The notes beneath the pieces were generated by a model. The model worked only from the letters and a program-made list of their open reading frames with translations. It had not been told where the DNA came from and did no database searches. From Nonlabens spongiae (GTDB lineage: Bacteria; Bacteroidota; Bacteroidia; Flavobacteriales; Flavobacteriaceae), in assembly GCF_002117125.1 (NCBI RefSeq), contig NZ_CP019344.1, positions 1-64,000 of the forward strand: a stretch of 64,000 bases of DNA, written 5' to 3'. Positions within the stretch are counted from its first letter, which is position 1, and every line of letters starts with the position of its first letter. Below, piece by piece: positions 6,312 to 40,668 of the stretch. The position numbers and the translations under genes are program-made.

Positions 6312-6313
6312 AA

Positions 6314-21887: not shown

Positions 21888-21908
21888 CATTTTTAGACTT
21901 TTACCTTG

Positions 21909-22940: not shown

Positions 22941-22991
22941 GGTTTCAAAACCTATCTCGCGGTGAACTAATAGAACTGATAGTCTAGTTAA

Positions 22992-24167: not shown

Positions 24168-25176
24168 TGTAATTATACCTCTTTATAATGCTGAGGACTT
24201 CGTTGAAAAAGCCTACGACTTTATAAAAAACCAAAAAGAGCTAAAGGTTCCTGTGGAAATTATTTTTGTCGATAATAATTCTAAAGACAGCTCATTTGAA
24301 AAAGCCAAGCACCTAGCTCAGAAGGATGAGCAGGTAAAAGTATTTAGGGAAACCAGACAAGGAGCGCCTTCTGCACGCAACAAGGGCTTCAAGGAATCTA
24401 AAGGAAATTTTCTATATTTCTTTGATGCTGATGATCAACTATTTGATGATGCACTAGCTTCGCTATACAATGTCCTTACCTCTCAAGATGTACATGCTGT
24501 CTGCGGTAGATTTATTAAATCTCATAAGAATATTGAAGATTTATCTATCAAGGAGATGAAATATGATGGCGATGTGAAGGTTTTTCAGCCTCCATTTCTG
24601 GGACTTTTATGGTTTAAAGATCTGAGTACAACTATAGGGCCTCCAGGATTCATGTATACTAGACGTGTCTTTGAAGAATTAGGAATGTATAATGTAGAGA
24701 TTCCAGCTAGTGAGGATACAGCGTTTGACATAGATCTAGGGATGAGGTATCCAGTTGCCACGATCAACAAGTTGATTTATCTATATTTTAAACATGAAAA
24801 TGCAACCACTACAATTTTAAAAAAGAAAAAAAGTAGGGCATTTATGCAATGGCCTCGTATTATCCATTCTCATGTGCCGTTCCATAAAAAGCACCCAGAT
24901 AATCATGCCTACACACAAATTCTTAAAGAAAAGATATTCAGCTCTATCCCTAGAATGATTCATGAGACTAACGGTTATCAAAAACGGAAAGAGCTTTTTA
25001 ATAAAACCAAAACTGATATCTATCCACTCGAACTTCCTAGGACCTATGATCTAGCTTTGAAACTATTGGTTCTCACAAATAATCCCATTTTATTCAAGTT
25101 TATACTGTTTAAGATGAAATCACGATATATCGAGTCCTATGATGATCCTACTTTAAGATTGTCAGAATATTTCTGA
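24154..25176 (+). CDS. GT2-family glycosyltransferase
   Basis: GT-A glycosyltransferase, 340 aa, starting MDLISVIIPLYNAEDFVEKAY. It has IIFVDNNSKDSSF, a GAPSARNKGF helix, the metal site FFDADDQLF (about 89-97) and PASEDTAFDIDLGMRY as the catalytic-base region. The C-terminal 80 residues are a basic helical extension. The start overlaps the GT4 gene by 14 bp, so both are on one transcript. No substrate can be assigned. Confidence 0.82.
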   Translation: MDLISVIIPLYNAEDFVEKAYDFIKNQKELKVPVEIIFVDNNSKDSSFEKAKHLAQKDEQVKVFRETRQGAPSARNKGFKESKGNFLYFFDADDQLFDDALASLYNVLTSQDVHAVCGRFIKSHKNIEDLSIKEMKYDGDVKVFQPPFLGLLWFKDLSTTIGPPGFMYTRRVFEELGMYNVEIPASEDTAFDIDLGMRYPVATINKLIYLYFKHENATTTILKKKKSRAFMQWPRIIHSHVPFHKKHPDNHAYTQILKEKIFSSIPRMIHETNGYQKRKELFNKTKTDIYPLELPRTYDLALKLLVLTNNPILFKFILFKMKSRYIESYDDPTLRLSEYF

Positions 25177-25202
25177 CAAACAAAATCCAATTTTCTACAG
25201 AA

Positions 25203-26594
25203 ATGACTACTAGTTTCAAGAGTCCTATAATACCCAGTGAACAAAAATTTGCTCGAATTCATGGTGAATCGCATGAACCGGATCTGAAATCCATTTGTTT
25301 ATATGCTGCCACGGGTTTTTTCTGGGGAGATGCTACTTACTACCGTGACTTGAAAGCTGTACAACCTGGTACTTTAAATAATATTGATGAAGACGGGTTC
25401 TTACTAGATTCTAAACCTTGGTTCAATTGGTACTACGAGCCGCATGGACAATCTTTTCAAGAATCTGTTAAGCAACATGAGTTGTTGCTCGAGCAAATAA
25501 TAGATGAACAGGTAGGTGAACAAAACGTAATCCTTCCTCTTTCTGGAGGTCTCGATAGCAGAAGCCAGGCAGTGGCACTTCATAAACTGGGTAAAAAAGT
25601 ATCGTCGTATTCCTATTCATTCGCTGGTGGTTTTAAGGAGCATGAAATCAGCGAGCAAATTGCTAAGAAATGCAATTTTGAATTTCAGGCTTTTGAAATA
25701 CCACATGGCTACCTCTGGGACGATATTGAAAAACTGGCACAAATAAATGGTTGCTATTCAGAGTTTACGCACCCGCGCCAGATGGCAGTAGTTGAAGATT
25801 TGAGAAAGCTAGATGGAGTTTTTTCTTTGGGCCACTGGGGCGATGTGCTTTTTGATCGAGGTGGCGATGAAGGTATCGAGCAGAATGACCTTGTCAAATA
25901 CATTCATAAGAAGGTGATAAAAAAAGGAGGGCTAGAATTAGCCACTCAATTATGGAAATCTTGGGGTGTCGAGGGAAACTTTCAAGAGTATCTCTCTGAG
26001 GTTACCTTGGATTTATTGAAAAGAATTGAAATTAAAAATACATCTGCTAAAGTTCGCGCCTTCAAATCAATGTACTGGGCGCCTAGATGGACAAGCATCA
26101 ATATGAGTGTTTTTAAAGCGGCACATCCTATTACCTTACCCTACTATGACGATAGGATGTGCGAGTTGATTTGCAACATCCCAGAAGAACATCTCGCTGA
26201 TCGCAAGATCCAAATCGAATACATTAAACAAAATAATCCTGCAGTGGCGCAGATCACTTGGCAGGACCACAAGCCATACAATTTATTCAATTATCACCGT
26301 GATAAGTCTCCCAACAATCTACCTTATCGCGTAAAGAATAAGATCAAGCGTATGGTCAATGATAAGATGGGAAGGAAATATATTCAACGTAACTGGGAGC
26401 TTCAGTTCTTAGGGGATGAAAATAAGCAGCACTTAGAGTCTTATCTTTTCAATGATACTTTTTCAAACTTCATCGATCCTGAGATCGTACAAAAGGTTTA
26501 TGCCAGCTTTAAAAACGATGATCAAGTTTATTATTCCCATCCTGTGAGCATGTTGCTGACCTTGAGCTTATGGAACAATAAGCTGCGTGATTGA
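25203..26594 (+). CDS. Asparagine-synthase-like ATP-pyrophosphatase (no glutaminase Cys)
   Basis: AsnB-like protein of 463 aa. The PP-loop ATP site LPLSGGLDSRSQAV is at residues 112-125 and GGDEG near residue 221. The N-terminal 75 residues resemble only the distal part of the Ntn glutaminase domain (LYAATGFFWGDATYY and KAVQPGTL). The catalytic N-terminal Cys and its domain are missing, so free ammonia or another amine would be the nitrogen source. In polysaccharide loci such proteins may amidate uronic acids; this fits the WlbABC and UDP-GalA genes but is inference. Confidence 0.72.
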   Translation: MTTSFKSPIIPSEQKFARIHGESHEPDLKSICLYAATGFFWGDATYYRDLKAVQPGTLNNIDEDGFLLDSKPWFNWYYEPHGQSFQESVKQHELLLEQIIDEQVGEQNVILPLSGGLDSRSQAVALHKLGKKVSSYSYSFAGGFKEHEISEQIAKKCNFEFQAFEIPHGYLWDDIEKLAQINGCYSEFTHPRQMAVVEDLRKLDGVFSLGHWGDVLFDRGGDEGIEQNDLVKYIHKKVIKKGGLELATQLWKSWGVEGNFQEYLSEVTLDLLKRIEIKNTSAKVRAFKSMYWAPRWTSINMSVFKAAHPITLPYYDDRMCELICNIPEEHLADRKIQIEYIKQNNPAVAQITWQDHKPYNLFNYHRDKSPNNLPYRVKNKIKRMVNDKMGRKYIQRNWELQFLGDENKQHLESYLFNDTFSNFIDPEIVQKVYASFKNDDQVYYSHPVSMLLTLSLWNNKLRD

Positions 26595-26610
26595 TTTATA
26601 GCCTCCTGAC

Positions 26611-27201
26611 ATGAAGAAACTCAAGTTTTACCTAAAGCACTATTTGATGAATTCTCACCTCAAGAGATTTGAAAAAATTGTGCTCGCAAATCATCCAGAA
26701 GTGGTAGAAGATGTACAGATAACTTATGGATTGAGGGGGTGCGATGAACGCAAAACTAATTTCTCAGAGCGTTTCAAGCATCTTATGAAGTATTATCCCG
26801 AGTTTGTTTATGTGTTTCAATGGCGTACAGGGCTTCTCAAATCCAGTCGTTTAAAATCTCTGTTTAAGTATACTGATTACCAGTGCAAAATCTTCAAAAG
26901 TACCAAAATTGAAGGAGGAATGGCTTGTTATCATCCTTATGCAAGTGTTATTAATGCTAAAAACATCGGTAGGAATTTTGAATTCAGAAACAGTATTACG
27001 ATAGGCAATAAATCAAATGACAACCGGCTCATTCCTACCATAGGCGATAATGTCAAGATTGGTGCTAATGCTTGCATCATAGGCGATATTAAAATTGGTA
27101 ATAATGTGATCATTGGCGCGGGCTCAATTGTTGTTAGAGATGTGCCTAATAATGTGGTTGTGGCAGGGAATCCAGCTCGTGTGATTAAAGCTTTAGAATA
27201 A
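26611..27201 (+). CDS. Serine-acetyltransferase-like hexapeptide transferase
   Basis: Left-handed beta-helix acyltransferase, 196 aa. A helical N-terminal half (about 1-95) precedes the hexapeptide repeats, which include [40 protein letters not shown], and the final [22 protein letters not shown]. This order resembles CysE/SAT and polysaccharide O-acetyltransferases of the same fold. In this locus an O-acetyl decoration is more likely than cysteine synthesis. It follows the AsnB-like gene by 16 bp and ends the transcript before a 194-bp gap. Confidence 0.75.
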
Positions 27202-27234
27202 TATTATCTAGGCTAGGAGAGTGATGAATCTCTC

Positions 27235-27248
27235 GCTTTCGCGAAAGC
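27235..27248. repeat. GCTTTCGCGAAAGC palindrome (intergenic)
   Basis: Perfect copy in the 194-bp gap between the acyltransferase and the next GT4 gene, 34 bp after the stop. It is preceded by ATCTCTC, which is the reverse-orientation form of the usual GAGAT extension. It lacks a T-run, so it is not an obvious terminator. Confidence 0.95.
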
Positions 27249-27395
27249 GAACTATTAAAACGCCTCATTATTAAGACCAAAAATCATAAAACCTAGAATA
27301 GCTATTGACCGACTATGTTTGCCATTATTCCTTCTCGCATTTAAATGGGGTAGGTGAAGCAAATCAGTTATTTTTGACCCTCAGATGTAATATTC

Positions 27396-28499
27396 ATGTC
27401 GAGACCTCTTAAAATCCTTTTTACCATACCAAATTTTGAGACAGCTGGTAGTGGAAAAGTCGTTTATGACCTAGTGAAGGGGCTCAATAGAGAAAAATTT
27501 CATCCAGAGATTTTAGTGAAGCATTCTAGAGGTAAATTTTTCAAAGAAGTTGAGAAACTAGGTGTCCCCATACATGTTTTTGATTATGAAACGGATTACA
27601 AGCCTTTATGGAACTTCCCGTTTCGAGTCCTTAGAGTTTCTAGGTATCTTAAAAGTCTGGATGTCGATATTATACATTCCTGGCATTGGAGTTCAGACTT
27701 TTCAGAACCTCTGGCAGCGCGCATGGCGGGAATAAAGTTTATTTATACAAAAAAGGCGATGGGATGGGGCAATAAAGCCTGGGTATGGCGCTCTAAATTG
27801 AGTACAAAGGTCATTGCAATCAATAAAGACATGATGAGTGAGTTTTTTGCGAAGCTCCCTTCAGTTCACGCTACCTACTTACCGCTGGGCTTGGATACAG
27901 AAGTTTATCAACCGCAAGAGTATCACCGACCTACCGCGGTTAAACATGGGATTGTTTATGACGATTTCGTTGTGATCTCAGTTGTAAATATGGTACCGGT
28001 AAAAGGCATAGAGATTTTAATAGAAGCTTTTCTCCAAACCAATATTCCCAATAAAAAGCTATTGCTTGTAGGTAATGATCGATCTGAATACGTGGATCAA
28101 CTCAAATTGAAATATTGCAAAAAGCATCCAGAAGTGATTTTTACAGGAAAACAGCAAGAGGTTAGAAATTATCTTTCCATTGCAGATGTTTTTGTGATCC
28201 CGACTAAAAATGAAGGTAAGCGTGAAGGCATGCCTATGGCTCCAGTTGAGGCTATGAGTAGTGCTTTGCCAGTAATTGGATCTAGAGTTTCAGGGGTGAC
28301 TGATATCTTGGAAGGTTTTGAAGACTGGATCTTTGATGCTGGAAATACTCATTCATTATCTGACAAACTCACGGAGTTCTACAAACTTCCTAAAGAAAGC
28401 AAAGAGAATATAGGTGTTGAAATGCGTGCAAAAGTAATCGATCAATATTCTCTTCAAGAGTTTATTAGATCTAGAGAGCAAGTATATGAGTCAGTATAA
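27396..28499 (+). CDS. GT4-family glycosyltransferase
   Basis: GT-B glycosyltransferase, 367 aa. Motifs are FTIPNFETAGSGKVVYDLVKG at the N-terminus, DIIHSWHWSSDFSEP, the donor-side start SVVNMVPVKGIEILIEAF, and EGKREGMPMAPVEAMSSALPV (about 271-291). It may start a transcript after the 194-bp gap; a TATTTTTG at 27369 resembles a -7 box but has no clear -33 partner. It overlaps the following sulfotransferase by 14 bp, which suggests that the sugar it adds may be the one sulfated. Confidence 0.83.
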   Translation: MSRPLKILFTIPNFETAGSGKVVYDLVKGLNREKFHPEILVKHSRGKFFKEVEKLGVPIHVFDYETDYKPLWNFPFRVLRVSRYLKSLDVDIIHSWHWSSDFSEPLAARMAGIKFIYTKKAMGWGNKAWVWRSKLSTKVIAINKDMMSEFFAKLPSVHATYLPLGLDTEVYQPQEYHRPTAVKHGIVYDDFVVISVVNMVPVKGIEILIEAFLQTNIPNKKLLLVGNDRSEYVDQLKLKYCKKHPEVIFTGKQQEVRNYLSIADVFVIPTKNEGKREGMPMAPVEAMSSALPVIGSRVSGVTDILEGFEDWIFDAGNTHSLSDKLTEFYKLPKESKENIGVEMRAKVIDQYSLQEFIRSREQVYESV

Positions 28500-29334
28500 A
28501 AAGCACGCAATCATTTTGGGGTCTGCTAGAAGTGGCACGAGCTGGTTGAGCGAGAATCTGGCAAAGCCTTTCCGGTATAGAATGTTGTTTGAGCCTGAGC
28601 ATGATGATAATACTCCAAAAGGTCATCTTCTAACCGATAAGCTTTTTTTAAACAGAAAGGAGGTGTCAAAAAATGCGAGTCATTATTTGCACCAAGTTTT
28701 GAAAAATAGAGTTGATAGTGACTGGATTGCACAGAATTCAAATAGAAAGTATAAAATGCATCTATGGCCAGTAGTGCCTAAGAAGTTTATCGTAAAATTT
28801 GTGAGGTTCAACCTTTCAGGACTTTATGTGGCTCGAGATTTAGGAATTCCCACAGTTCATATCATCAGGAATCCCATTGAAGTAATTAAATCACAAAAAC
28901 GTGTGGCTTTTCCTTGGCTTTTAGATTTTCAATACTTCTTAAATCAGCCTCAACTCATCGATATTCTCAGAAATGAATATAGTTATGATCTCAAAGCAAT
29001 TGAAAGTAAGACAGATACAGAAAAACTTGTCGTACGCTGGTGCCTAGAAAATGTGATCCCTTTAGAATATTACCGCTATTCCGATGAAAATTTCTATGTA
29101 GTAAAGCATGAAGATTTACGTAAAAACATAAGTGTTTATAAGGAGCTGTGTACTAACCTCGGCCTTGAAGTAGTTGAAAACATTGAGAGCGAGTACAAAA
29201 AGCCATCAAGTAAAACCCATCCTAAATCACATATTCAAGGAAAGCGTGATAAGAACTTGCTGCTGGAACCATCAGAAATGGATACGATCACGTCAATCTT
29301 GAACCAATTTAAACAATCACTTTACCACGTCTAA
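28486..29334 (+). CDS. Sulfotransferase family protein
   Basis: Third putative PAPS-dependent sulfotransferase, 282 aa. The P-loop-like PAPS site ILGSARSGTSWLSENL is at residues 10-25. The 3'-phosphate site is VHIIRNPIEVIKSQKR (about 125-140). The RWCLENVIPLEYYRY and VKHEDLRKN segments correspond to the distal conserved parts of the family. It starts inside the preceding GT4 gene. With the genes at 58 and 20017 it makes a set of three, all divergent from each other, consistent with sulfation at different positions. Confidence 0.82.
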   Translation: MSQYKKHAIILGSARSGTSWLSENLAKPFRYRMLFEPEHDDNTPKGHLLTDKLFLNRKEVSKNASHYLHQVLKNRVDSDWIAQNSNRKYKMHLWPVVPKKFIVKFVRFNLSGLYVARDLGIPTVHIIRNPIEVIKSQKRVAFPWLLDFQYFLNQPQLIDILRNEYSYDLKAIESKTDTEKLVVRWCLENVIPLEYYRYSDENFYVVKHEDLRKNISVYKELCTNLGLEVVENIESEYKKPSSKTHPKSHIQGKRDKNLLLEPSEMDTITSILNQFKQSLYHV

Positions 29335-29360
29335 TGGTGCGAACTTTATAGTTTAAAATA

Positions 29361-30539
29361 ATGACGATAACCCTAGTTTTACCTCAACCTCCTGCTTATT
29401 CAGAGACTTTCTTTAGGTCTAAAATCTCAGGGCTTCAAGAGTCAGGGTACAAGGTAATTTTAGTAACAGGTTCCTCAGAGCAAAAGTTTACCGAGTGCTT
29501 GCATTTACAGCACCCTAGAGTGAGTCAAAATGCATTTGTACAGATTCTGAAAATGGGTTACACGTTTATAGGGTTACTATCTCATTTAGCTCGCATTATC
29601 AAGTATATAAAGCTTGAGAAAAGCAACGGTACAAGCATGGGTCGCATTTTGGAAAAAATCTATCTAAATTCGACTTTATTAAAACTTGATACGGATTGGC
29701 TACATTATGGATTTGCTACGATGGCGATGGACAGAGAGCTAGTTGGAAAATCTATAGGTGCTAAGGTTGCGGTTAGTTTCAGAGGTTATGATATTGATGT
29801 ATTTCCATTAAACAAGGATGATGTCTATGGAAAACTTTGGCATAATCTAGACAGAGTGCATAGTATTTCAAATTATTTGATTGAAAAGGCTTATGAATTA
29901 GGACTGCCTCAAGATATAACCAGTGAAGTCATAACACCAGCGGTAGATATAGACAACTTGCCAAAATGCACGGAAAGCAGTAGACAACGATCAAAAAAAC
30001 TAAAAATTATCACTATAGCGCGTTTGCATTGGATCAAGGGGATCGACGACTTGATAGAGGTGGCACAACTTCTTAAACAAAAATCGATAGACTTTGAATG
30101 GATAATTGTGGGCGATGGAGACAAGAAGCATTTAGAACGATATAAATACAGGCTTTACGAGAAAGGACTTCAAGGCGAAGTGAAATTACTTGGAAAACGT
30201 AGTCATGCTGAGACGCTCAAAATTTTATGCGATTGTTCTATATACGTTCAAACTAGCTTGAGTGAAGGGTTTTGCAATGCCGTTCTTGAAGCACAAGCGA
30301 TGGGTAAATTATGCATAGTTACTGATGGTGGTGCTTTGATAGAAAACGTAGAGAACGGTAAGAGTGGGTGGGTAGTGCCTAAACTTGATCCAGAATCAAT
30401 GAGGGATAAGATTATTGAGGTGAGTTCTTTATCAAGCATTGAAACAAATGAAATCTCAAACTATGCTAGACTAAGAGTTAAGAGATTGTTTACCCTAGAA
30501 AATCAAAAAAGACAGTTCAATAGATTTTATAATTCGTAA
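29361..30539 (+). CDS. GT4-family glycosyltransferase
   Basis: GT-B glycosyltransferase, 392 aa. It carries PQPPAYSETFFRSKISGLQ at the N-terminus, WLHYGFATMAMD and SFRGYDIDVFP in the acceptor half, and IARLHWIKGIDDLIEVAQLL plus SLSEGFCNAVLEAQAMGKL in the donor half. The layout resembles colanic-acid-type transferases (WcaL/AmsK-like) that recognise S-E-T-F near the N-terminus. It is followed by a 170-bp gap before the aldolase module. Substrates are unknown. Confidence 0.83.
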   Translation: MTITLVLPQPPAYSETFFRSKISGLQESGYKVILVTGSSEQKFTECLHLQHPRVSQNAFVQILKMGYTFIGLLSHLARIIKYIKLEKSNGTSMGRILEKIYLNSTLLKLDTDWLHYGFATMAMDRELVGKSIGAKVAVSFRGYDIDVFPLNKDDVYGKLWHNLDRVHSISNYLIEKAYELGLPQDITSEVITPAVDIDNLPKCTESSRQRSKKLKIITIARLHWIKGIDDLIEVAQLLKQKSIDFEWIIVGDGDKKHLERYKYRLYEKGLQGEVKLLGKRSHAETLKILCDCSIYVQTSLSEGFCNAVLEAQAMGKLCIVTDGGALIENVENGKSGWVVPKLDPESMRDKIIEVSSLSSIETNEISNYARLRVKRLFTLENQKRQFNRFYNS

Positions 30540-30709: not shown

Positions 30710-32242
30710 ATGAAAATACTAGATTGTACTTTAAGAGATGGTGGGTATTACACAAATTGGGATTTTGATAATGGGTTGGTTGATCTTTATTTGCAATCTT
30801 TAGAACACCTGCCTGTGGAGTATCTAGAGGTAGGATATCGATCTAAGCCTCTCCCGGGTTACCTAGGGAAATATTTCTATTTACCTCTTCCAGTTCTTAA
30901 GGAACTTAAATCAAAAAGCAGCAAAAAATTGGTGGTCATCTTGAATGAGAAAGATGTTCGAGCTGCTGATGCTGAGGAGTTGTTGTTACCCGTCAAAAAT
31001 TATGTGACCATGGTGCGTATGGCCATTGATCCCAAGAATTTCAAACGGGCTTTGGAACTGGCACAAAAAATCAAAGAGCTCGGTTTTGAAGTGGCATTTA
31101 ATGTAATGTATATGTCCACATGGAAAGAGGAGAAAGAATTTCTAGACTTATTAGATAAGGTTGATGGCGTAGCAGATTATTTTTATATGGTAGATTCCTA
31201 TGGTGGAGTCTATCCAGAGGATGTCAAGGAAACTATAGCTCTTGTTAGATCTAAAACTGGAGTAAGACTTGGATTCCATGGGCATAACAATCTAGAAATG
31301 GCACTCGCCAATACTCTGGTCGCAATTGAACAAGGAGTCGACATAGTTGATGCAACTATCACCGGGATGGGTAGAGGAGCTGGTAATCTTAAGACGGAAC
31401 TGTTGTTGAGTTCATTACAGGCTAAAAATCAATTAAACTTTGATTATAATGAGTTGGCAAAGGTTGTAGATGCATTTAGTGATCTACATAAACAACATGA
31501 CTGGGGGACAAGTTTACCTTATATGGTTTCAGGTGCAAACTCTTTACCTCAAAAACAGGTTATGGAATGGGTAGGGAAACGATATTATTCATTTAACTCC
31601 ATCATTAGAGCATTAAATAATCAGACTCTGGGTAAAAGGGACAATATCTCACTGCCTAAAATAAAATTTGGTGAAAATCTTTCTAAAGTGCTTATCGTTG
31701 GGGGCGGCCCTAGCCCTGTAGATCATGTACATGCCATTGAGCAATTCTTGAACCAGAATCCTGAAATATTGGTTATTCATGCGAGTTCTAAAAACGCAAT
31801 GAGCTTCGCAAACATTTCAAACGATCAAATTTTTTGTCTCGTAGGTGATGAAGGGCATCGTTTAGAGTTGGTATTTGGAGAAAAAGAAATTTCAGGAAAT
31901 TGTGTATTACCACCCTATCCTAGAAAAATGGGTACTTATATACCCAAAGCCGTAGAAAACAATGCATTTGAGTTAGAGCGTGTAGAATTCACAGATTATT
32001 TTAAGGGTTCACACACGGCAATAGCCTTACAGATCAGTATAGATCTAAATGCATCTTCTGTTTATGTGACCGGTTATGACGCATACTCTGGGAGCATTAG
32101 TAAAAGAGAACATGAGTTGTTTCTAGAAAATCAATATCTCTTTAAGATTTATAAAAACTACAGAAATGTGGAGTTAGAAAGTTTGACTCCTACAGGTTAT
32201 GATAGTTTGACGCAAACCTCAATTTATTCTTTGATCAAATAG
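30710..32242 (+). CDS. HMGL-like (DRE-TIM) aldolase fused to a GGGPSP C-terminal domain
   Basis: Residues 1-300 are a DRE-TIM metalloaldolase domain: DCTLRDGGYYTNWDF (5-19), VDSYGG (161-166) and the metal ligands in GFHGHNN (188-194). Relatives condense or split 2-oxo acids, using a divalent metal and an enolpyruvate-type intermediate. Residues 325-510 form a second domain beginning KVLIVGGGPSP (326-336), similar in layout to DUF115/Maf-like or GT42-like proteins. ATG 30710 is chosen over TTG 30707. Three bases separate it from the KdsB-like gene. I infer a pyruvate-type aldolase that makes a 2-keto-3-deoxy acid for CMP activation; neither substrate nor reaction is proven. Confidence 0.75.
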   Translation: MKILDCTLRDGGYYTNWDFDNGLVDLYLQSLEHLPVEYLEVGYRSKPLPGYLGKYFYLPLPVLKELKSKSSKKLVVILNEKDVRAADAEELLLPVKNYVTMVRMAIDPKNFKRALELAQKIKELGFEVAFNVMYMSTWKEEKEFLDLLDKVDGVADYFYMVDSYGGVYPEDVKETIALVRSKTGVRLGFHGHNNLEMALANTLVAIEQGVDIVDATITGMGRGAGNLKTELLLSSLQAKNQLNFDYNELAKVVDAFSDLHKQHDWGTSLPYMVSGANSLPQKQVMEWVGKRYYSFNSIIRALNNQTLGKRDNISLPKIKFGENLSKVLIVGGGPSPVDHVHAIEQFLNQNPEILVIHASSKNAMSFANISNDQIFCLVGDEGHRLELVFGEKEISGNCVLPPYPRKMGTYIPKAVENNAFELERVEFTDYFKGSHTAIALQISIDLNASSVYVTGYDAYSGSISKREHELFLENQYLFKIYKNYRNVELESLTPTGYDSLTQTSIYSLIK

Positions 32243-32244
32243 AT

Positions 32245-32985
32245 ATGCAAGATTTTGTAATCGTGATACCAGCGAGATATGAATCTACAAGATTACCAGG
32301 AAAACCTTTACTAGACATTCATGGGAAATCTTTATTGCGGCGTACCTATGAACAGTGTATCAAAGCAGTAGACGATAGAATAGTGTATGTTGCTACCGAT
32401 GATAAAAGAATAATAAAACATTGTGAGAAGTATGACATTCAAGCAGTGTTGACCTCCAGTAATTGTCTCACTGGAACCGATCGTGTAGCTGAATTTGCTA
32501 TAAAAGTTCCAGCAAAAACTTATATCAACGTTCAGGGAGATGAGCCGCTGATGAACCCTAAAGATATATTGAACACCATAAAAGCGATCAAAGAACATCC
32601 TTATGATATTATAAACGGTTATGCCTCAATTGATAGTGAAGAAGACTATAGAAGCTCAAGTATCCCTAAAGTTGTCTCTAGGCCAGATGGGAGACTTTTA
32701 TACATGTCTAGGTCACCTATTCCAGGAAATAAAAAACATGATTTTATAAAGTCTTGGCGTCAAATCTGTGTCTATGGTTTTCCTGCAGAGGCTCTTAAAC
32801 AATTTGCTGCTCTAAAGCATAAAACGCCTCTAGAAAATGAAGAAGATATTGAAATTCTACGTTTTCTTGAGCTAGGATATGAAGTCAGAATGATTGAATT
32901 GTCTGCAAATTCTGTGGCTGTAGATACGCCAGCTGACCTTTTAAAGGTTCAGGATATTATCTCAAAGAAAGAATGTTATGATTAA
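32245..32985 (+). CDS. KdsB-like CMP-ulosonic acid cytidylyltransferase
   Basis: CTP:ulosonate cytidylyltransferase of the KdsB type, 246 aa. The N-terminal nucleotide-binding motif IPARYESTRLPGKPL (7-21), INVQGDEPLM and VVSRPDGRLLYMSRSPIP match CMP-Kdo synthetase. The fact that it is in a polysaccharide locus, next to an aldolase, a phosphatase and a likely CMP-sugar transferase, suggests it is not the housekeeping kdsB and activates a different 3-deoxy-2-ulosonic acid. It overlaps the HAD gene by 8 bp. Confidence 0.8.
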   Translation: MQDFVIVIPARYESTRLPGKPLLDIHGKSLLRRTYEQCIKAVDDRIVYVATDDKRIIKHCEKYDIQAVLTSSNCLTGTDRVAEFAIKVPAKTYINVQGDEPLMNPKDILNTIKAIKEHPYDIINGYASIDSEEDYRSSSIPKVVSRPDGRLLYMSRSPIPGNKKHDFIKSWRQICVYGFPAEALKQFAALKHKTPLENEEDIEILRFLELGYEVRMIELSANSVAVDTPADLLKVQDIISKKECYD

Positions 32986-33589
32986 GAATATTTTTTGGGA
33001 CTTTGATGGTGTACTTATGAATTCCAATTCTGTGAGAGATCGTGGTTTTGAATTAGTTTTGAAAGACTTTCCTACAGCACAAGTGGAGCAGCTCATGCAG
33101 TTTCACCGTCAAAATGGAGGGTGGTCCAGATACGTGAAATTCCGTCATTTTTTTGAGGTAATCAGAAAGGAATCAATTAGTCCAGAGGAAATTGACGTGT
33201 GGGCAGGGAAATTTTCAAATGTTATGCTGGAAAATCTTATCGATGAAAAGTTGCTGATTGATGAAACAATCACTTTTGTGAAAAGTAATTTCAGGGATTA
33301 CAACTTTCATATCGTTTCTGGCTCAGACGGGAATGAGTTGAGAACCATCTGCAAAGCGCTGAACATTGATCCATATTTCATTACCATTGAAGGTTCACCT
33401 ACACCTAAATCCTCACTCGTAGCCGATATTATAGAAAACCGAGGTTATCTACCACAACAATCTATCCTTATAGGGGATTCAATAAATGATTATGACGCGG
33501 CTAAGGATAATGGTCTTCATTTTAAGGGATACAATAGTTCTAAGGTAGAAGTATTGACAGATTATGATTTCAGTTTTCATGATTCCTAG
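32978..33589 (+). CDS. HAD-superfamily phosphatase
   Basis: HAD hydrolase of 203 aa with the full motif set: motif I NIFWDFDGVLMNS (D8 nucleophile, D10 acid/base), motif II HIVSGSDGN, the motif III Lys in TPKSSLV, and motif IV IGDSINDYDAAKD. The helical cap of about residues 16-85 is of the beta-phosphoglucomutase type, not the small KdsC type. Placed between a KdsB-like enzyme and a transferase, it could remove phosphate from an ulosonic acid phosphate, as KdsC and NANP do. That role is inferred from context. Confidence 0.78.
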   Translation: MIKNIFWDFDGVLMNSNSVRDRGFELVLKDFPTAQVEQLMQFHRQNGGWSRYVKFRHFFEVIRKESISPEEIDVWAGKFSNVMLENLIDEKLLIDETITFVKSNFRDYNFHIVSGSDGNELRTICKALNIDPYFITIEGSPTPKSSLVADIIENRGYLPQQSILIGDSINDYDAAKDNGLHFKGYNSSKVEVLTDYDFSFHDS

Positions 33590-34346
33590 ACAGCAACTTT
33601 ATAAGCTGATTATGGTGAGATGGTACTGGCTCAAAATTCAGTACAAAAAACTCATGGAGTCAAATCAAGAAATCAATTTTAGAAGACTGGAAGATCTTAA
33701 ACAAGCCATCGGCGGGAAAAAGAATATTGTTGTTATGTGCAGTGGTCCTACTGCAAATAGAATGCAGCCGTCTCAAGATGATTTTTATTTGGTGACCAAT
33801 GATTCTTACAAGCTAGTTCAGAATCAAGATTTTCTATACTATGTACATGATGGCTTTTTTATAAGACGTTTTTTTGCAAATCAACCCTTTTGCGATAATC
33901 ATGACAAGTCAATTTTTCTTTATCGATCCCTGAATAAGCCCCATTTGGGAAACTTTAAACATTTTTTGAAAAGAAAAAGACACTTGAGTAACCAAAATTT
34001 TGTAATCTCAGATTTTGAAGACAATGTTGCTCATGCAAATGATAATTATGATGACTTTCATAACTTTTTTGAGAAACATCAGATACACACAAAAATTCAA
34101 AACTCTGGAATATTCCTGTTGTTGCTGGGATTTTATATAGCTTATCATAATGATCTGAACTTGAAAATATACGGTTTGGACCTTGGTCTAGGAGGTAAGG
34201 TTCATTTTGAAAAGGGAGGATTTATAGGAGTTTCTATTACCCATGACAGGGTTAAGGTGAATACTAAGCTTCAACTGGATAGGATGTACCAGATATTGGG
34301 TAATAGAATTGAGAATCACTCTAATTTTAATTCAAACGTTGAATAG
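33564..34346 (+). CDS. Putative CMP-sugar glycosyltransferase (GT42/DUF115-like)
   Basis: A 260-aa protein with NIVVMCSGPTANRMQP (54-69) near the start of its core domain, then VTNDSYK, and a distal QNSGIFLLLLGFYIAYHNDLNLKIYGLDL-type segment (about 184-212). This order (N-terminal GxGPS-like loop, later SG-helix and strand ending G-[ILV]-D) is that of GT42 sialyltransferases such as Cst-II and of DUF115 proteins. I therefore infer a transferase using the CMP-sugar made by the two preceding genes. The similarity is by pattern only. It starts inside the HAD gene. M6 and M17 are alternative starts. Confidence 0.55.
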   Translation: MISVFMIPRQQLYKLIMVRWYWLKIQYKKLMESNQEINFRRLEDLKQAIGGKKNIVVMCSGPTANRMQPSQDDFYLVTNDSYKLVQNQDFLYYVHDGFFIRRFFANQPFCDNHDKSIFLYRSLNKPHLGNFKHFLKRKRHLSNQNFVISDFEDNVAHANDNYDDFHNFFEKHQIHTKIQNSGIFLLLLGFYIAYHNDLNLKIYGLDLGLGGKVHFEKGGFIGVSITHDRVKVNTKLQLDRMYQILGNRIENHSNFNSNVE

Positions 34347-34577: not shown

Positions 34578-35906
34578 ATGCTTTTTAGATTCCTGAAATA
34601 TTTACAGCCTACCTCATATTTCATGCTCAAACGTGAGAACGGTAAAAGCATTTTCCCGCGCATTGAAGCTGTTGATAGAGCATCTGCTCTTAAAGTTCCA
34701 GAAGATTCTAGGTATACAAGCGCTCTGGCCCGTGAATATGATCGATCCTGGCGCTTGATCTTAAAGGGATATACTATAGAATCAGATAGTTATGAGCACA
34801 TAGAGAAACTCCCAGTGGTAGACGAGTACCGTTTTCTGAGAAAAAATTTTAATTCAGCATGGATTTGGTATGTGCTATGTCTACGGATTTTTAGTTTTAA
34901 GAATCCGTTTCGTGAGATTTCCGCTTTCGCGAAAGCGAGATCCGTAAAAAGAGTGAATGAACACAAGGAACCTATTGAATACCCAGGCTATTCTGAATTT
35001 TTGGGTCCACTGATCAAACAAAGACCTCTAGTTTCCATCATTATCCCGACTCTCAATAGGTATCCTTACTTGAAGGATGTGCTGGAAGATCTTGAAAAAC
35101 AAGATTATACTAATTTTGAGGTGATCGTTGTAGATCAATCTGAGCCATTTAAAAAAGAGTTTTACGACCAGTTTGATCTCGACATACTTTTAATTCACCA
35201 AGAGGAAAAAGCTCTGTGGTTAGCTCGTAATACGGCCATTATCAAAAGCAGGGGAGAATATATTTTAATGTTTGATGATGACTCTCGGGTTGATCCAGCC
35301 TGGATAAGCCAGCATCTCAAGACTCTTGATTTTTTTGATGCTGCTATATCGTCTGGAGTCTCTATTTCCACACAGGGAGCAAAGGTGCCAGATAGTTACG
35401 CCCACTTTTGTTTAAGCCAGCAACTTGATACTGGAAACGCCATGATCAAGAAATCTGTTTTTAAATCCATAGGTTTATATGACCGCCAGTTTGAGAAGCA
35501 ACGCATGGGCGATGGTGAATTTGGACTGCGAGCCTATCTCGCTGATTTCAAGAATATTTCTAACCCATTTGCCAAAAGATTGCATCTCAAAGTAGGATCA
35601 GGAGGGCTGCGACAGATGGGCAGCTGGGATGGGTTTAGACCTAAAAAATGGTTAGACCCTAGACCTATACCTAGCGTAGTCTATCTATTTAGAAAATATC
35701 ATGGAAATTCAGCATCACGGTGGGCTCTGTTGAAAACGGTCCCTGGTTCGATTATTCCATATAGATATAAAAGTAGCTCTAAGATGATGTTCATAGGTGG
35801 AATAATAAGTATAATTTTACTGCCAATAGTATTCTTACAAGTGATGAAATCATGGAAATTGGCTTCTAAAAAGCTTGCAGAGGGTGAATTAATTGAAAAA
35901 TTATGA
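34578..35906 (+). CDS. GT2-family glycosyltransferase with C-terminal membrane segment
   Basis: 442-aa protein. A 150-residue N-terminal region of unknown role precedes the GT-A domain VSIIIPTLNRYPYLKDVLEDL (about 153-173), then VVDQSEPFKKE, the RNTAI helix and the metal-binding MFDDDSRVD (about 231-239). QRMGDGEFGLRAYL is the catalytic-base region. A hydrophobic stretch MFIGGIISIILLPIVFLQVM near the C-terminus is a likely membrane anchor. A perfect palindrome copy encodes AFAKAR at about residue 117, in the N-terminal region. A TATTTTTG box at 34519 may be a promoter part, without a clear -33. Confidence 0.8.
   Translation: MLFRFLKYLQPTSYFMLKRENGKSIFPRIEAVDRASALKVPEDSRYTSALAREYDRSWRLILKGYTIESDSYEHIEKLPVVDEYRFLRKNFNSAWIWYVLCLRIFSFKNPFREISAFAKARSVKRVNEHKEPIEYPGYSEFLGPLIKQRPLVSIIIPTLNRYPYLKDVLEDLEKQDYTNFEVIVVDQSEPFKKEFYDQFDLDILLIHQEEKALWLARNTAIIKSRGEYILMFDDDSRVDPAWISQHLKTLDFFDAAISSGVSISTQGAKVPDSYAHFCLSQQLDTGNAMIKKSVFKSIGLYDRQFEKQRMGDGEFGLRAYLADFKNISNPFAKRLHLKVGSGGLRQMGSWDGFRPKKWLDPRPIPSVVYLFRKYHGNSASRWALLKTVPGSIIPYRYKSSSKMMFIGGIISIILLPIVFLQVMKSWKLASKKLAEGELIEKL
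34923..34936. repeat. GCTTTCGCGAAAGC palindrome (in gene, AFAKA frame)
   Basis: Perfect copy inside the GT2 gene at 34578, read as AFAKA and followed by GAGATCC, the common extension, which is translated as Arg-Ser. Confidence 0.95.
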
Positions 35907-37027
35907 TACTCGAAAACTCTAATGAATGTCAAAAGCACGTTCTAATTCTAACATCTGAATTTCCTCCCCTACCTGGAGGAATAGGGCAGCATGCCTTTGA
36001 TTTAGCAAAGCATCTCTCAAATTTTTATGAAGTAAAGGTAATTGCTGATCAGAGATCAGTGGAAGGTAATGAGGAAGCTGAATTTGATAAACAACAAAAA
36101 TTTCAAATCCAAAGAGTTCAAAGAAACCAATTGATTTTATGGACCTATTTAAAAAGAATTGTCAGCTCTAATAGATCATTCAGCAGATTTGATTTAGTTA
36201 TTGCTACTGGGAAATTCTCACTTTGGCAGATTCACATTTTAAAACTATTGAAGGGTTCAAAACCTGTAATCTCTATAATTCATGGTTCAGAGGTTTTGTT
36301 GCCTTCAAAATATGCTAGAAAACTTACTGATACTGCGCTGAAAAAATCAGATATGGTTGTAGCAGTTTCAAACTACACGCTCGATTTAGTCAGTCACTTG
36401 AAACTGAAAGACTCTATTGTGATTCCTAATGGGATCTCTTCTGTGCAAGATTATCGTAAAAAAGAAATAGGCAAAGAAACACTACACCTTATTACAGTGG
36501 GAAATCTTACTCAACGTAAGGGCCAGCATAATGTAATCAAAGCTTTACCAGAAATTTTGAAGCAGTTTCCTCATACTCATTATCATTGTGTAGGATTACC
36601 CACGAACCTAGATCAGGACAAGGCTCTTGCTCAAAAACTAGGAGTGCTCAATCACGTCACATTTCATGGAAGACTTGACGAGGTTAAAAAGAATGAACGC
36701 TATGAGGCGAGTCATATTTTCTTAATGCTCAGTGAAAAAACCAGCACTGGAGACGTAGAAGGTTTTGGGATTGCAATATTAGAGGCAAATGCTTACAGTA
36801 TACCTGCGATAGGAAGCAAAGGCTGCGGTATAGAAGATGCTATAGATCATGGGAAGTCTGGATTATTAGTAAATCCACATGATTCCGAAGATGTGGCAGG
36901 TGCCATTACTACCCTTATGCATGACTACGAGGAATATCAATTTAATGCCCATAGTCATGTTCAAAAATTTACTTGGAATTCAATAATCAAGTCCTATAAT
37001 CAGATAATTGACAAGCTATGCGCATAG
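35903..37027 (+). CDS. GT4-family glycosyltransferase
   Basis: GT-B glycosyltransferase group 1, 374 aa. It opens LILTSEFPPLPGGIGQHAFDLAKHL (9-33), the glycine-rich acceptor-side loop of GT4 enzymes. It continues with IIHGSEVLLP, VAVSNYTLDLV, the donor-side VGNLTQRKGQHNVIKAL and VEGFGIAILEANAYSIPAIG (about 286-305). It overlaps the preceding GT2 gene by ATGA and the following gene by 10 bp. PimB-like mannosyltransferases share this pattern, but the sugar is unknown. Confidence 0.85.
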   Translation: MILENSNECQKHVLILTSEFPPLPGGIGQHAFDLAKHLSNFYEVKVIADQRSVEGNEEAEFDKQQKFQIQRVQRNQLILWTYLKRIVSSNRSFSRFDLVIATGKFSLWQIHILKLLKGSKPVISIIHGSEVLLPSKYARKLTDTALKKSDMVVAVSNYTLDLVSHLKLKDSIVIPNGISSVQDYRKKEIGKETLHLITVGNLTQRKGQHNVIKALPEILKQFPHTHYHCVGLPTNLDQDKALAQKLGVLNHVTFHGRLDEVKKNERYEASHIFLMLSEKTSTGDVEGFGIAILEANAYSIPAIGSKGCGIEDAIDHGKSGLLVNPHDSEDVAGAITTLMHDYEEYQFNAHSHVQKFTWNSIIKSYNQIIDKLCA

Positions 37028-38154
37028 TTGTGATTTCTCATACGGAACATTATTTCAATCAAGATAGACAAATTTGCGGTTGGGGTTCTACGATAAGGGA
37101 ATTAGATCATGTAGCACAGATTTGTGATGAGCTGATACATATTGCTCCCTTGCATAAAACTCCTGCTCCAGAAAGCAGCCTAACCTATACAGCCTCAAAT
37201 GTACAATTTATTGCTCTCGAACCATCAGGAGGGAAGGGACTGAAAAAACTTAGCATTCTTAAAACCCTATTCACTAACTTAAAAAAAATTCAGCGTTATA
37301 CTAAATCGGCTGATTATATCCAGTTTAGAGCACCCACCGGTATGGGCACATACGTTCTACCATATTTGAAATTTTTTCGATCTGGTAAGTACTGGGTGAA
37401 ATATGCTGGGAATTGGATGGATGATCACATGCCTCTGGGCAATAGAATTCAGAAATTCTGGCTTAAAAAAATTGACAAAAAAGTAAAAGTTACCATTAAC
37501 GGTAATTGGGAGTCAAATCCTAGGTTTTTATCTTTTGAAAACCCTTGTCTTACCAAAGAAGAGTATGAGCAGGGGCAAGAGGTGATTAGTAAAAAAATCA
37601 ATTCGGATTTTGATAATCTAAGGTTGGTATTTGTCGGCAGTCTCAATAGACACAAGGGAGTTCATCTGATCTTAACAGCTTTTTGTAAAAAAAGTCAATA
37701 TACATCTCTTTCTGAAATGATTTTTGCTGGAGATGGAGCAGAGAGAACTGAATTTGAAGAAATGGCTACCCATTCTCCATTCCCAATTAAATTTTTGGGG
37801 CACTGTTCAAAAGATGAAGTTGCTAATCTGTTATCTCAAAGCCATGTACTCATTTTACCCTCAAAAAGTGAAGGGTTTCCCAAGGTAGTAGGAGAAGCCA
37901 TGAACTTTGGTTGTATTCCTGTAGTTACTGATATCTCCTGTATGAAGGATTACATCAAGAATAATTATAATGGGTTTTTGCTTAAGGAAGCATCAGCAGA
38001 TTCAATAATCAAAACCTTAAATGAACTGGAGCAATTAGACTTTGATTCATACAAAGAGGCTCTGTTACACAATAGTAAACTAGCACATCGTTTTACTTAT
38101 GATTACTATAACTTTGCGCTTCAAGATAAAATATTTGAGGATGTCTATGAATAG
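37018..38154 (+). CDS. GT4-family glycosyltransferase
   Basis: GT-B glycosyltransferase, 378 aa. The N-terminal half has ISHTEHYFNQDRQICGWGST and YIQFRAPTGMGTYVLPYL. The donor half has VFVGSLNRHKGVHLILTAF, then ILPSKSEGFPKVVGEAMNFGCIPV (about 279-302), with the ExxxxxxxE motif, and VTDISCMKDYIKNNYNGFLL. It overlaps the preceding GT4 by 10 bp. A 71-bp gap precedes the polymerase-like gene. Confidence 0.83.
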   Translation: MRIVVISHTEHYFNQDRQICGWGSTIRELDHVAQICDELIHIAPLHKTPAPESSLTYTASNVQFIALEPSGGKGLKKLSILKTLFTNLKKIQRYTKSADYIQFRAPTGMGTYVLPYLKFFRSGKYWVKYAGNWMDDHMPLGNRIQKFWLKKIDKKVKVTINGNWESNPRFLSFENPCLTKEEYEQGQEVISKKINSDFDNLRLVFVGSLNRHKGVHLILTAFCKKSQYTSLSEMIFAGDGAERTEFEEMATHSPFPIKFLGHCSKDEVANLLSQSHVLILPSKSEGFPKVVGEAMNFGCIPVVTDISCMKDYIKNNYNGFLLKEASADSIIKTLNELEQLDFDSYKEALLHNSKLAHRFTYDYYNFALQDKIFEDVYE

Positions 38155-38228
38155 CTTGTTAAAGAAATATTAATAAGGCTTTGTAAGGTATCGTTCGGAA
38201 TATTTGAATAAAACAGATCTATCCCTTG

Positions 38229-39635
38229 ATGTTTAAATTAGAACATCTTCCTTATCCTTTACTTTTAGCAATTCACTTTGCTATCGGTATTTCTTGCGTG
38301 TTTGCCCCAGTACTCGCTAAGGTATTGGTCTATTTAGTGATATTTTATTTGTTGATTAGAATTTTCAATAATTCTGATCGCAGCAATGAGGTTCTTCTAG
38401 CTTGCCTGTATTTTGTTTGCCTTGAAGTTTTTTTTAGAATGACGAAATCAACGCCAGTACACGAGATTGGAAAGTACTTTGTATTAGTATGCTGTATAAT
38501 AGGTGTTTACGTTAAAGGTTTTTCCTTACGATCATCTTGGTATGTAATTTACATCCTTTTGTTTATTCCCAGTATACTGGTAGCTGCTGAACGTATAGAT
38601 ATTGATGAAAGTCTGCGTAAAGCGATAGCTTTCAATCTCGCTGGTCCCGTAGTTCTGGGAGTCGCGGCTGTCTACTGCTATAATCGGAAGATCAGCAAGC
38701 AACAACTTTTAAATTTTTTCGGATTAGGAGTAGCTGGAATTTTTGCAATGACAGGTTATGTGATTTTTAAAGCGCCTGACTTAAGTGAAATAACGTTTTC
38801 ATCAGCATCAAATGCTTTAGCCTCTGGGGGTTTTGGTCCTAATCAGGTTTCCACCGCTTTTGGTATTGGTATTTTTCTTTCATTCGTTAGATTCATCATG
38901 ATCAAGAACTTGTGGACTAATATTTTAGACTTGTTCCTATTCTTATTGTTTACCTATCGAGGCTATTTGACTTTTTCTAGAGGAGGTGTGCTTACAGCGT
39001 TTTTAATGATAGGAGCGTTTATCGGCACTATCATTTTTCTCCAGAGTAGAAATTTCAGAGCCTCTTTCATTCCTAAATTTATATTAATAGGAGCTGGTAT
39101 TTTAATTGCGTTTTTCTACAGTAGTGTAGTGACTGGCGGTATGATTGAGAACCGATATACAAACAAGGATACTATAGGTAGAGAGAAGGAAGATGTTTCT
39201 GCTGGAAGAGGGGAGCTTGCCAACCTTGAAACACAGGCGTTTCTAGAGCACCCGATTTTAGGCTTGGGAGCAGGTATGTCCAAATTTTATAAATTGAAAA
39301 AAGCGGGTATCGAAGGAGCTTCTCATAATGAGGTAACTAGACTGCTAGCAGAACATGGAGCTGTGGGTGTTTTTTCATTAGGACTCTTAATCCTAGTGCC
39401 TTTATTCAATCGTTTGGGCGATCGCTCGAACATGTTATTCTACAGTTTTCTTATATTTTGGTTTGCTACTATAAATCACTCTGCTATGCGCAATGCTGCA
39501 CCCTCTTTTCTCTACGCCTTGGCGCTTTTGAAAATAAAGGAGCCAGAAATCGTCAAAACAGATGAGGAAGAAGAGGTAAATGAATCGCCTAATTTGAGAA
39601 ATCAAAAAGTTCTGAATCCGTCTCGCATCAGTTAA
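38229..39635 (+). CDS. O-antigen polymerase/ligase-like membrane protein (Wzy/WaaL)
   Basis: Integral membrane protein of 468 aa with about 11 hydrophobic segments. A large loop carries YNRK and a Wzy_C/WaaL-type signature near residues 350-380: GLGAGMSKFYKLKKAGIEG, followed by ASHNEVTRLLAEHGAVG. It should polymerise repeat units or ligate the chain on the periplasmic face. ATG 38229 is preferred over TTG 38226. Flippase and chain-length regulator genes are not in the window, so the export pathway is incomplete here. The C-terminal 30 residues are acidic and cytoplasmic or periplasmic. Confidence 0.82.
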   Translation: MFKLEHLPYPLLLAIHFAIGISCVFAPVLAKVLVYLVIFYLLIRIFNNSDRSNEVLLACLYFVCLEVFFRMTKSTPVHEIGKYFVLVCCIIGVYVKGFSLRSSWYVIYILLFIPSILVAAERIDIDESLRKAIAFNLAGPVVLGVAAVYCYNRKISKQQLLNFFGLGVAGIFAMTGYVIFKAPDLSEITFSSASNALASGGFGPNQVSTAFGIGIFLSFVRFIMIKNLWTNILDLFLFLLFTYRGYLTFSRGGVLTAFLMIGAFIGTIIFLQSRNFRASFIPKFILIGAGILIAFFYSSVVTGGMIENRYTNKDTIGREKEDVSAGRGELANLETQAFLEHPILGLGAGMSKFYKLKKAGIEGASHNEVTRLLAEHGAVGVFSLGLLILVPLFNRLGDRSNMLFYSFLIFWFATINHSAMRNAAPSFLYALALLKIKEPEIVKTDEEEEVNESPNLRNQKVLNPSRIS

Positions 39636-39636
39636 T

Positions 39637-40668
39637 ATGGCCCTCAAAATTCTCTATATAGGAAATAAACTTAACGTGCATGGTGGTAACATCAGCTACA
39701 TTGAGACACTGGGACCACTATTGGAAAGTTCAGGCCACCAAGTTTCGTACGCCAGCGATAAAAAGAATAAAGGTCAGAGATTTTTGGATATGCTGGTTAC
39801 GCTTTCGCGAAAGCGAGATCAAACAGACCTTGTACTCATCGATACCTACAGCACGTTGAATTACTGGTATGCGATTGCGGTCGCTCGATTGTGCGTGCGA
39901 TTTGATATTCCTTACATCCCAATCTTGCATGGCGGAAACTTGCCGGCAAGAGCAAAAAAATCGAGAAAGACCTTCAGTTTTTTGATCAACAATGCTCATA
40001 GCGCTATTTGTCCTAGCCCATATTTGAAGAAAAACCTGTCTGATTTAGGTTACAAGAACTTGAGGGTGATTAAGAATACCATCGAGCTGACAGATTATGA
40101 TTTTAAACTAAGAGATGCCGTTAAACCAAAACTCCTCTGGGTACGGTCTTTCTCTAGAATCTACAATCCATTAATGGCTGTTGAGGTTTTTAAAAATATC
40201 CAGTCACGATTTTCTGATGCCCAGCTTTGCATGATTGGACCAGACAAAGATGGGTCACTTCAGCAAACTAAAGATCTTGCAAAGAACTACGGTCTTGAAA
40301 TAGAGTTCACTGGACGTTTGTCTAAAGAAGAATGGCGAGCTCGCAGTGAAGAGTTTGATATTTTTATAAATACTACGCATTTTGATAACGTACCCATAAG
40401 CGTTTTGGAAGTCATGGCGCTAGGTTTACCAGTGGTTTCTACAGACGTAGGCGGATTGACCTATATGCTCGAAGATGGAAAGACTGCATTATTAGTAAAC
40501 GATGGTGATGTTAAGGCAATGACTGAAAAAATTATTGATCTTATCGAGCAACCAGAACTGTCTAAAGCCTTATCCATCAACGCTCGCAAAGAGGTTGAAA
40601 AATATAGCTGGGATGCCGTCAAATTGGAATGGGAAAAATTACTCAGTGAGATTGAGAATCGCACTTAA
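39637..40668 (+). CDS. GT4-family glycosyltransferase
   Basis: Last gene of the polysaccharide locus; a GT-B glycosyltransferase of 343 aa. Signatures are ILYIGNKLNVHGGNISYIETLG, YIPILHGGNLPAR, LLWVRSFSRIYNPLMAVEVF and NTTHFDNVPISVLEVMALGLPVVS, in which the donor-binding Glu lies in the LEVMALG helix, then TDVGGLTYMLEDGKTALLV. A perfect palindrome copy at 39801 is read in a different frame from the other copies (LSRKRD). It begins one base after the Wzy-like stop, and its own stop is 5 bp from the convergent FAD oxidase gene. Confidence 0.85.
   Translation: MALKILYIGNKLNVHGGNISYIETLGPLLESSGHQVSYASDKKNKGQRFLDMLVTLSRKRDQTDLVLIDTYSTLNYWYAIAVARLCVRFDIPYIPILHGGNLPARAKKSRKTFSFLINNAHSAICPSPYLKKNLSDLGYKNLRVIKNTIELTDYDFKLRDAVKPKLLWVRSFSRIYNPLMAVEVFKNIQSRFSDAQLCMIGPDKDGSLQQTKDLAKNYGLEIEFTGRLSKEEWRARSEEFDIFINTTHFDNVPISVLEVMALGLPVVSTDVGGLTYMLEDGKTALLVNDGDVKAMTEKIIDLIEQPELSKALSINARKEVEKYSWDAVKLEWEKLLSEIENRT
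39801..39814. repeat. GCTTTCGCGAAAGC palindrome (in gene, LSRKR frame)
   Basis: Perfect copy inside the last GT4 gene, translated as Leu-Ser-Arg-Lys-Arg-Asp with the GAGATC extension. It is the only copy in this reading frame. Confidence 0.95.

Follow-up and report, generated by a model that had tools for sequence, protein, structure and literature searches.

The route to CMP-Kdo (cytidine monophosphate coupled to 3-deoxy-D-manno-octulosonic acid) uses KdsA, KdsC and KdsB, and the route to CMP-nonulosonic acids uses NeuB, NeuA and sialyltransferases. Nonulosonic acids other than N-acetylneuraminic acid (Neu5Ac) are likewise activated by these synthetase families. To our knowledge, the biosynthetic CMP-ulosonate routes described so far all start with a synthase dependent on phosphoenolpyruvate (PEP). 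We analysed a stretch of 64,000 nucleotides from Nonlabens spongiae (contig NZ_CP019344.1, positions 1 to 64,000; the whole stretch is termed the window), in which genes for an aldolase of the HMGL-like DRE-TIM type (ALD), a KdsB-like cytidylyltransferase, a phosphatase of the haloacid dehalogenase (HAD) superfamily and a transferase-like protein (G4) stand side by side. The best reading of the locus is an aldolase-based branch of CMP-ulosonate biosynthesis with three core genes, not four. We put at about 60% the probability that the module makes and CMP-activates an acidic 3-deoxy-2-ulosonic acid other than Kdo, and that this acid is formed by ALD.

The module shares a KdsB-type cytidylyltransferase and a HAD phosphatase with the CMP-Kdo route; it differs from that route in that the window holds no PF00793 protein, the HAD enzyme is not KdsC-like and residues of the KdsB sugar domain are changed. 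With the CMP-nonulosonic route it shares NeuA-like and GT29-like proteins, found in sister loci, and a sialyltransferase-like predicted fold in G4; however, its own genome lacks NeuB, and the constant partner is an HMGL-type aldolase. The 4-hydroxy-2-oxovalerate aldolases DmpG and BphI are, like ALD, HMGL-like DRE-TIM proteins (~20% identity), whereas ALD has a C-terminal, putatively MptE-like domain, synthetase and HAD neighbours, a Tyr at what we take to be the catalytic His position, and a score below the equivalog cut-off. The HpcH/HpaI 2-oxo-3-deoxy acid aldolases (GarL, HpaI) also occur beside CMP synthetases and HAD-like genes, but their Pfam family differs from that of ALD. Characterized HpcH/HpaI members are catabolic. 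A further relative, BVU_2661 of Bacteroides vulgatus (PDB 3dxi, N-terminal domain), is titled 'putative aldolase', and we found no paper on it in the open literature. Nor was ALD or this set of genes the subject of any paper among the matches listed (titles and abstract beginnings, the best 12 to 20 per search where there were more) in the open literature, subscription literature being mostly outside the search. CMP-ulosonate pathways are already known; what is new here is the likely manner in which the acid is formed.

The four genes lie head to tail on the forward strand at 30710-34346, inside a polysaccharide locus, as judged from open reading frames (ORFs) and DNA. ALD (30710-32242) encodes 510 amino acids, with an N-terminal DRE-TIM (HMGL-like) aldolase domain at ~1-290 and a C-terminal domain, putatively MptE/DUF115-like, at ~325-510. 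The gene for the KdsB-like CMP-ulosonate cytidylyltransferase (32245-32985) follows after a gap of 2 bp, and the HAD gene (32978-33589) overlaps it by 8 bp. G4 was called as an ORF at 33564-34346; its homologues suggest a start at 33579, which gives an overlap of 11 bp with the HAD gene. The preliminary description of this DNA had reported tight junctions, which these values bear out, and its naming of the second and third genes agrees with Pfam scores of 150.8 bits for PF02348 and 46.4 bits for HAD_2 (cut-off 23.8), respectively. The HAD protein also matched Hydrolase (45.4 bits; cut-off 26.4). It is not of the KdsC type (TIGR01670, 16.3 bits vs. a cut-off of 106.95), and HAD motifs I and IV were found in 72 and 68 of 75 sequences, respectively.

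Relatives of ALD were collected by scanning a single genome from each species, which gave 173 confirmed loci; the best 80 were fetched, a choice biased to close relatives. The set used for counting comprised the window and 79 relatives, with locus L074 left out since the ORF caller missed its ALD. The ALD tree contained Bacteroidota together with three Balneolota and one Verrucomicrobiota. In 79 of the 80 loci, a CMP-ulosonate synthetase gene was present no more than five genes from ALD, the exception (L023) ending at a contig edge; it was on the strand of ALD in 79/79 cases and downstream of it in 78/79. Among the 65 directly adjacent pairs, the gap was 50 bp or less in 64 and the genes overlapped in 37. 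A HAD gene was found within five genes of ALD in 70/80 loci. At position +1, the NeuA-like cluster X231 accounted for 36 loci, KdsB-like genes for 28 and HpcH/HpaI genes for 11; at position -1, used as a control, the commonest family reached only 8/80. These findings demonstrate that the clustering of ALD, synthetase and HAD is a conserved unit and not chance. Joint conservation had been proposed for all four genes, and holds for three; G4 was present in 2 of the 80 loci.

ALD distribution is patchy, as is often the case for surface-polysaccharide genes. At E 1e-30, ALD was detected in 9 of 395 genomes of a phylum-wide sample, the N. spongiae genome included. Within the genus it was present in three of 23 listed genomes, again counting N. 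spongiae, and the other two also have the order ALD-KdsB-HAD.

The synthetase beside ALD is of two kinds: KdsB-like in 31 loci and NeuA-like in 48 (43 of cluster X231 and 5 of cluster c37), with L044, which carries both kinds, counted under the nearer one. The representative of X231 belongs to CTP_transf_3, and its top NCBIfam match, PseF, was under cut-off. The single representative taken from each NeuA-like cluster exceeded the PF02348 cut-off, and the X231 profile matched solved NeuA proteins (6ifd at E 2e-18) and, far more weakly, one KdsB. On the ALD tree, a quick tree without bootstrap, there were 16 changes between the two kinds, of which at least 9 were forced by strongly supported branches; the labels nevertheless showed more clustering than after shuffling, in line with inheritance. 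The ALD nearest to that of the window (75% identical), from Psychroflexus locus L013, has HpcH/HpaI and NeuA-like genes in place of KdsB. Locus L074 holds ALD and an X231 synthetase. In PMC2901514, Kdo is given as the only sugar besides Neu5Ac that is activated in the same manner. Since either of two synthetase families, both for 2-keto-3-deoxy sugar acids, can adjoin ALD, it is likely that ALD takes part in the making of such an acid. The CMP-activated ulosonic acid of the preliminary description thus gains support from the synthetases.

The KdsB-like protein of the window differs from the enzymes presumed to serve housekeeping. Of the NCBIfam subfamily models, two were exceeded (given below) and one, NF003950, was not (193.1 vs. 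234 bits). The protein was under the cut-offs of the equivalogs NF003948 (169.2 vs. 281) and TIGR00466 (142.3 vs. 155.2), but NF003948 is a weak criterion, being passed in none of 41 Bacteroidota genomes. For comparison, we took as housekeeping-type 30 KdsBs that are the best-scoring NF003948 places of these 41 genomes; this status is our assignment, further KdsB-like places were left out, and the set includes a long branch (L114) and a locus with a stop (L124). In the KdsB tree, a branch with support of 90 separated these 30 from the 32 module KdsBs and one KdsB-like protein of L065. A second PF02348 protein of the N. spongiae genome (C1:872593-873231) grouped with the housekeeping-type KdsBs. 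At three positions the module enzymes are changed: the H and G of HIG and the Q of LEQLR, kept in 30/30, 30/30 and 26/30 housekeeping-type KdsBs, are replaced by Q (28/32), C (28/32) and I (26/32), which in the window protein are Q173, C175 and I204. The His and Gln are presumably residues that touch Kdo in E. coli KdsB. Metal-site residues Q97, D99 and D227 are present in the window protein, and D99 and D227 in 32/32 module KdsBs; Q97 is found in 28/32 (N in 4), and D227 in 23/30 housekeeping-type KdsBs (N in 7). The roles of the corresponding E. coli residues, Gln98, Asp100 and Asp235, are given in PMC2901514. Four module KdsBs, among them those of L041, L054 and L064, diverge further, with A, H and H at the three changed positions and N for Q97. 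The residue loss makes Kdo-only specificity less likely. Because the three residues are changed, another KdsB is encoded elsewhere and the genome has no NeuB, the module product is probably not Kdo.

The assignment of ALD as a DRE-TIM aldolase with the motifs DCTLRDGG and HGHNN is upheld: both motifs are present (the latter as FHGHNN), and PF00682 (HMGL-like) scored 87.6 bits (cut-off 29) over residues 2-250. R9, D10, H190 and H192 are invariant in 80/80 loci. We take R9 to be the Arg of the RD motif, and D10, H190 and H192 to be the metal-binding Asp and HxH; the four residues are consistent with a metal-bound enolate. The second domain, absent from the preliminary description, is MptE/DUF115-like in relatives: PF01973 matched the C-terminal domain in 21 of the 32 relatives with E values up to 0.5 (the lowest being 4.5e-6) but gave no match for the window protein, and the C-terminal profile found nothing better than E 0.59 among PDB sequences. 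Invariant residues including G333, E381, R405 and D457 are kept in this domain, which is therefore probably not a relic.

In the pathway that we propose, ALD would join a three-carbon 2-oxo acid, putatively pyruvate, to what may be an aldose phosphate in an aldol reaction that depends on a metal. The phosphate would then be removed from the ALD product by the HAD enzyme (the order of steps is tentative), the KdsB-like enzyme would couple the free acid to CMP, and a transferase that varies with the locus (G4 in the window, GT29-like or other proteins elsewhere) would add the acid to the surface polysaccharide. Our searches agree with the earlier suggestion of a metal-dependent aldolase in place of a PEP-dependent synthase: no NeuB was found in the genome by PF03102 search, and no match to PF00793 (KdsA-type) in the window. 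PF00793 matches in the genome were restricted to C1:2660602 and C1:3305096; these two proteins may include KdsA, which was not sought in sister loci.

Several observations weigh against this pathway, and are set out below with the alternatives on which they bear. A HAD gene was not within five genes of ALD in 10/80 loci. L023 and L059 end at contig ends, and in L036, L041, L077, L084, L087 and L091 no HAD was recognized within that distance. L076 and L083 present a complication, as a PfkB carbohydrate kinase gene stands in place of HAD (L076:12246-13271 and L083:12235-13269). L080 carries its HAD gene on the opposite strand. As to ALD itself, Tyr13 occupies in 80/80 sequences the position at which DmpG-type aldolases have their catalytic His, and the score for the 4-hydroxy-2-oxovalerate aldolase equivalog TIGR03217 was under cut-off (91.9 vs. 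286 bits). Because of Tyr13, pyruvate is proposed as the donor from fold kinship only.

The Tyr substitution leaves room for an alternative in which the role of ALD is to make or lengthen a precursor, perhaps through a Claisen-type or retro-aldol reaction, and the C-C bond of the ulosonate is formed by an HpcH/HpaI aldolase, where there is one, or by an enzyme encoded elsewhere; synthetase and HAD would still serve a CMP-ulosonic acid. HMGL-like folds also catalyse acyl-CoA condensations, and ALD matched homocitrate, isopropylmalate and citramalate synthases. In addition, an HpcH/HpaI gene was present besides ALD in 12/80 loci, including L060 (two ORFs) and L073 (a 79-amino-acid fragment), and in some loci it lies between ALD and the CMP synthetase gene. 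Since both aldolases are present in these 12 loci, ALD may not form the ulosonate there. However, in 67 of the 79 labelled loci, among them the window, ALD is accompanied by a synthetase and no HpcH/HpaI gene lies within three genes. Moreover, the nearest characterized relatives of ALD by sequence and fold are 4-hydroxy-2-oxovalerate aldolases (the VIA-align comparison covers the N-terminal domain only). We consider a precursor role unlikely, and favour ALD as the enzyme that would form the acid.

HpcH/HpaI aldolases also stand beside synthetases where ALD is lacking. HpcH/HpaI profile matches were found in 30 of 395 Bacteroidota genomes, the N. spongiae genome having none at E 1e-30. Of the 30 loci, 2 also hold ALD; within ~1.5 kb, the 28 others showed a CMP-synthetase-like ORF in 8 cases, a HAD-like ORF in 4 and neither in the rest. 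In 12 HpcH/HpaI loci viewed over a longer distance, picked after the first survey and not at random, 11 had a CMP-synthetase-like ORF and 9 of them a HAD-like ORF as well. These HAD-like ORFs scored 73-169 bits, vs. ~300 for module HADs, and the surrounding genes encode oxidoreductases, methyltransferases, a sugar epimerase and others. The combination of HpcH/HpaI, a KdsB-like or NeuA-like synthetase and a HAD-like protein, with no ALD, was observed in L157-L164 and L166 (genomes G145, G256, G169, G213, G019, G016, G077, G137 and G317). Because of such pairs, the association of a pyruvate-type aldolase with a CMP synthetase is not unique to ALD; the pairing supports the general aldolase idea, and weakens the role of ALD as acid maker where both aldolases occur. 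It is an even question whether Bacteroidota make CMP-3-deoxy-2-ulosonic acids through pyruvate-dependent aldolases of two families, one being HMGL/DRE-TIM with a fused MptE/GT42-like domain and the other HpcH/HpaI, both partnered by a HAD and an interchangeable KdsB-like or NeuA-like synthetase.

A second alternative is that the module modifies or diverts a nonulosonic acid of the NeuB type. NeuB was over cut-off in 36 of 50 searched ALD genomes and lay within the fetched stretch of 19/80 loci, and a NeuB product may be the substrate of some NeuA-like partners. The window itself holds early genes of the legionaminic type at 3350-7387, encoding an SDR-type dehydratase, a LegC-family aminotransferase (549 bits; cut-off 420), a NeuD-type acetyltransferase (207 bits; cut-off 161) and a sugar nucleotidyltransferase. 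However, the lack of NeuB in the N. spongiae genome and in 61/80 stretches (some of them short) makes this alternative improbable. In 13 of the 19 loci with NeuB, another synthetase-like ORF is located no more than four genes from NeuB, and in 6 there is none at this distance. In L044, a block of dehydratase, LegC, NeuD, NeuB, NeuC-like, PtmE-like and synthetase genes (the NeuC-like and PtmE-like labels are our reading) adjoins an ALD module that includes two GT29-like genes and synthetases of both kinds; this arrangement, with a synthetase of its own in the NeuB block, suggests two separate products.

A second CMP-Kdo synthetase is known from E. coli group 2 capsules, namely KpsU. That the KdsB-like protein is likewise a duplicate for polysaccharide Kdo, with ALD an unrelated neighbour, is the least probable alternative: the protein exceeds the cut-offs of two models named CMP-Kdo synthetase, NF009905 (285.6 vs. 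255 bits) and NF003952 (241.3 vs. 193), and among solved structures it is closest to the CMP-Kdo synthetase 1gq9 (151.8 bits), presumably the capsule-type enzyme KpsU, but 1gq9 retains H, G and LEQLR in the alignment where the module enzymes have lost them, and the synthetase gene both accompanies ALD in nearly every locus and is exchanged with NeuA-like ones.

G4 (33579-34346) is locus-specific and outside the conserved core. It has no significant Pfam family, and profile searches gave no sequence-level match to GT42/DUF115; the AlphaFold model has a predicted fold of the GT42/MptE/GT29 type, near bacterial sialyltransferases. The GT42/DUF115-like assignment made previously thus stands for the predicted fold and not for the sequence searches. 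Foldseek searches of G4 in the PDB and in viral models gave nothing at E 0.001 or below. As a core member G4 was rejected: its hidden Markov model found only the window and L013 (E 5e-21) in the 80 loci, apart from a weak match in L043 (E 0.007, 12 bits). In other loci, the transferase genes near ALD are GT29-like, KpsC/S-like or of another kind. GT29 is a sialyltransferase family of the animal type. The GT29-like ORFs (cluster 6; L053:12831-13574 and 14 more, in 14 loci) lie up to six genes downstream of ALD, mostly at +3. Profile comparisons gave probabilities of 1% for G4 vs. the GT29-like relatives, 1.2% for ALD vs. G4 and 17% for ALD vs. the GT29-like proteins. On the basis of its model, we propose that G4 is a CMP-sugar transferase.

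If the reading with two aldolase families is correct, CMP-ulosonic acids would have a third route in addition to those through KdsA and NeuB, and this route would yield acidic surface sugars not described before. Genome-based prediction of glycans looks for KdsA and NeuB, and would miss acidic sugars in some Bacteroidota glycans if aldolases form them in a class of loci. The 3dxi family would gain a function, and pyruvate-dependent enzymes for unusual sialic-acid-like sugars would become testable. The repeated exchange of KdsB and NeuA provides a natural experiment on substrate recognition by CMP-ulosonate synthetases.

The surrounding polysaccharide locus is on the forward strand. Its upstream part (21906-30539) encodes a nucleoside diphosphate-sugar epimerase, glycosyltransferases, a hexapeptide transferase and others. 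The downstream part (34578-40668) encodes GT2- and GT4-type glycosyltransferases and, at 38226-39635, a membrane protein of the Wzy_C/O-antigen ligase type. On the margin of the polysaccharide locus, at 936-2120, lies a gene resembling that for L-2-hydroxyglutarate oxidase (444 bits; cut-off 299). The window contains 9 copies of the palindrome CGCTTTCGCGAAAGCG, with 0.00 expected, and the 3.39-Mb genome contains 671, vs. 0 for the reversed control. The window copies are at 24026, 27234, 34401, 34922, 39800, 42482, 48156, 54768 and 56385, those at 24026, 34922 and 39800 being inside ORFs.

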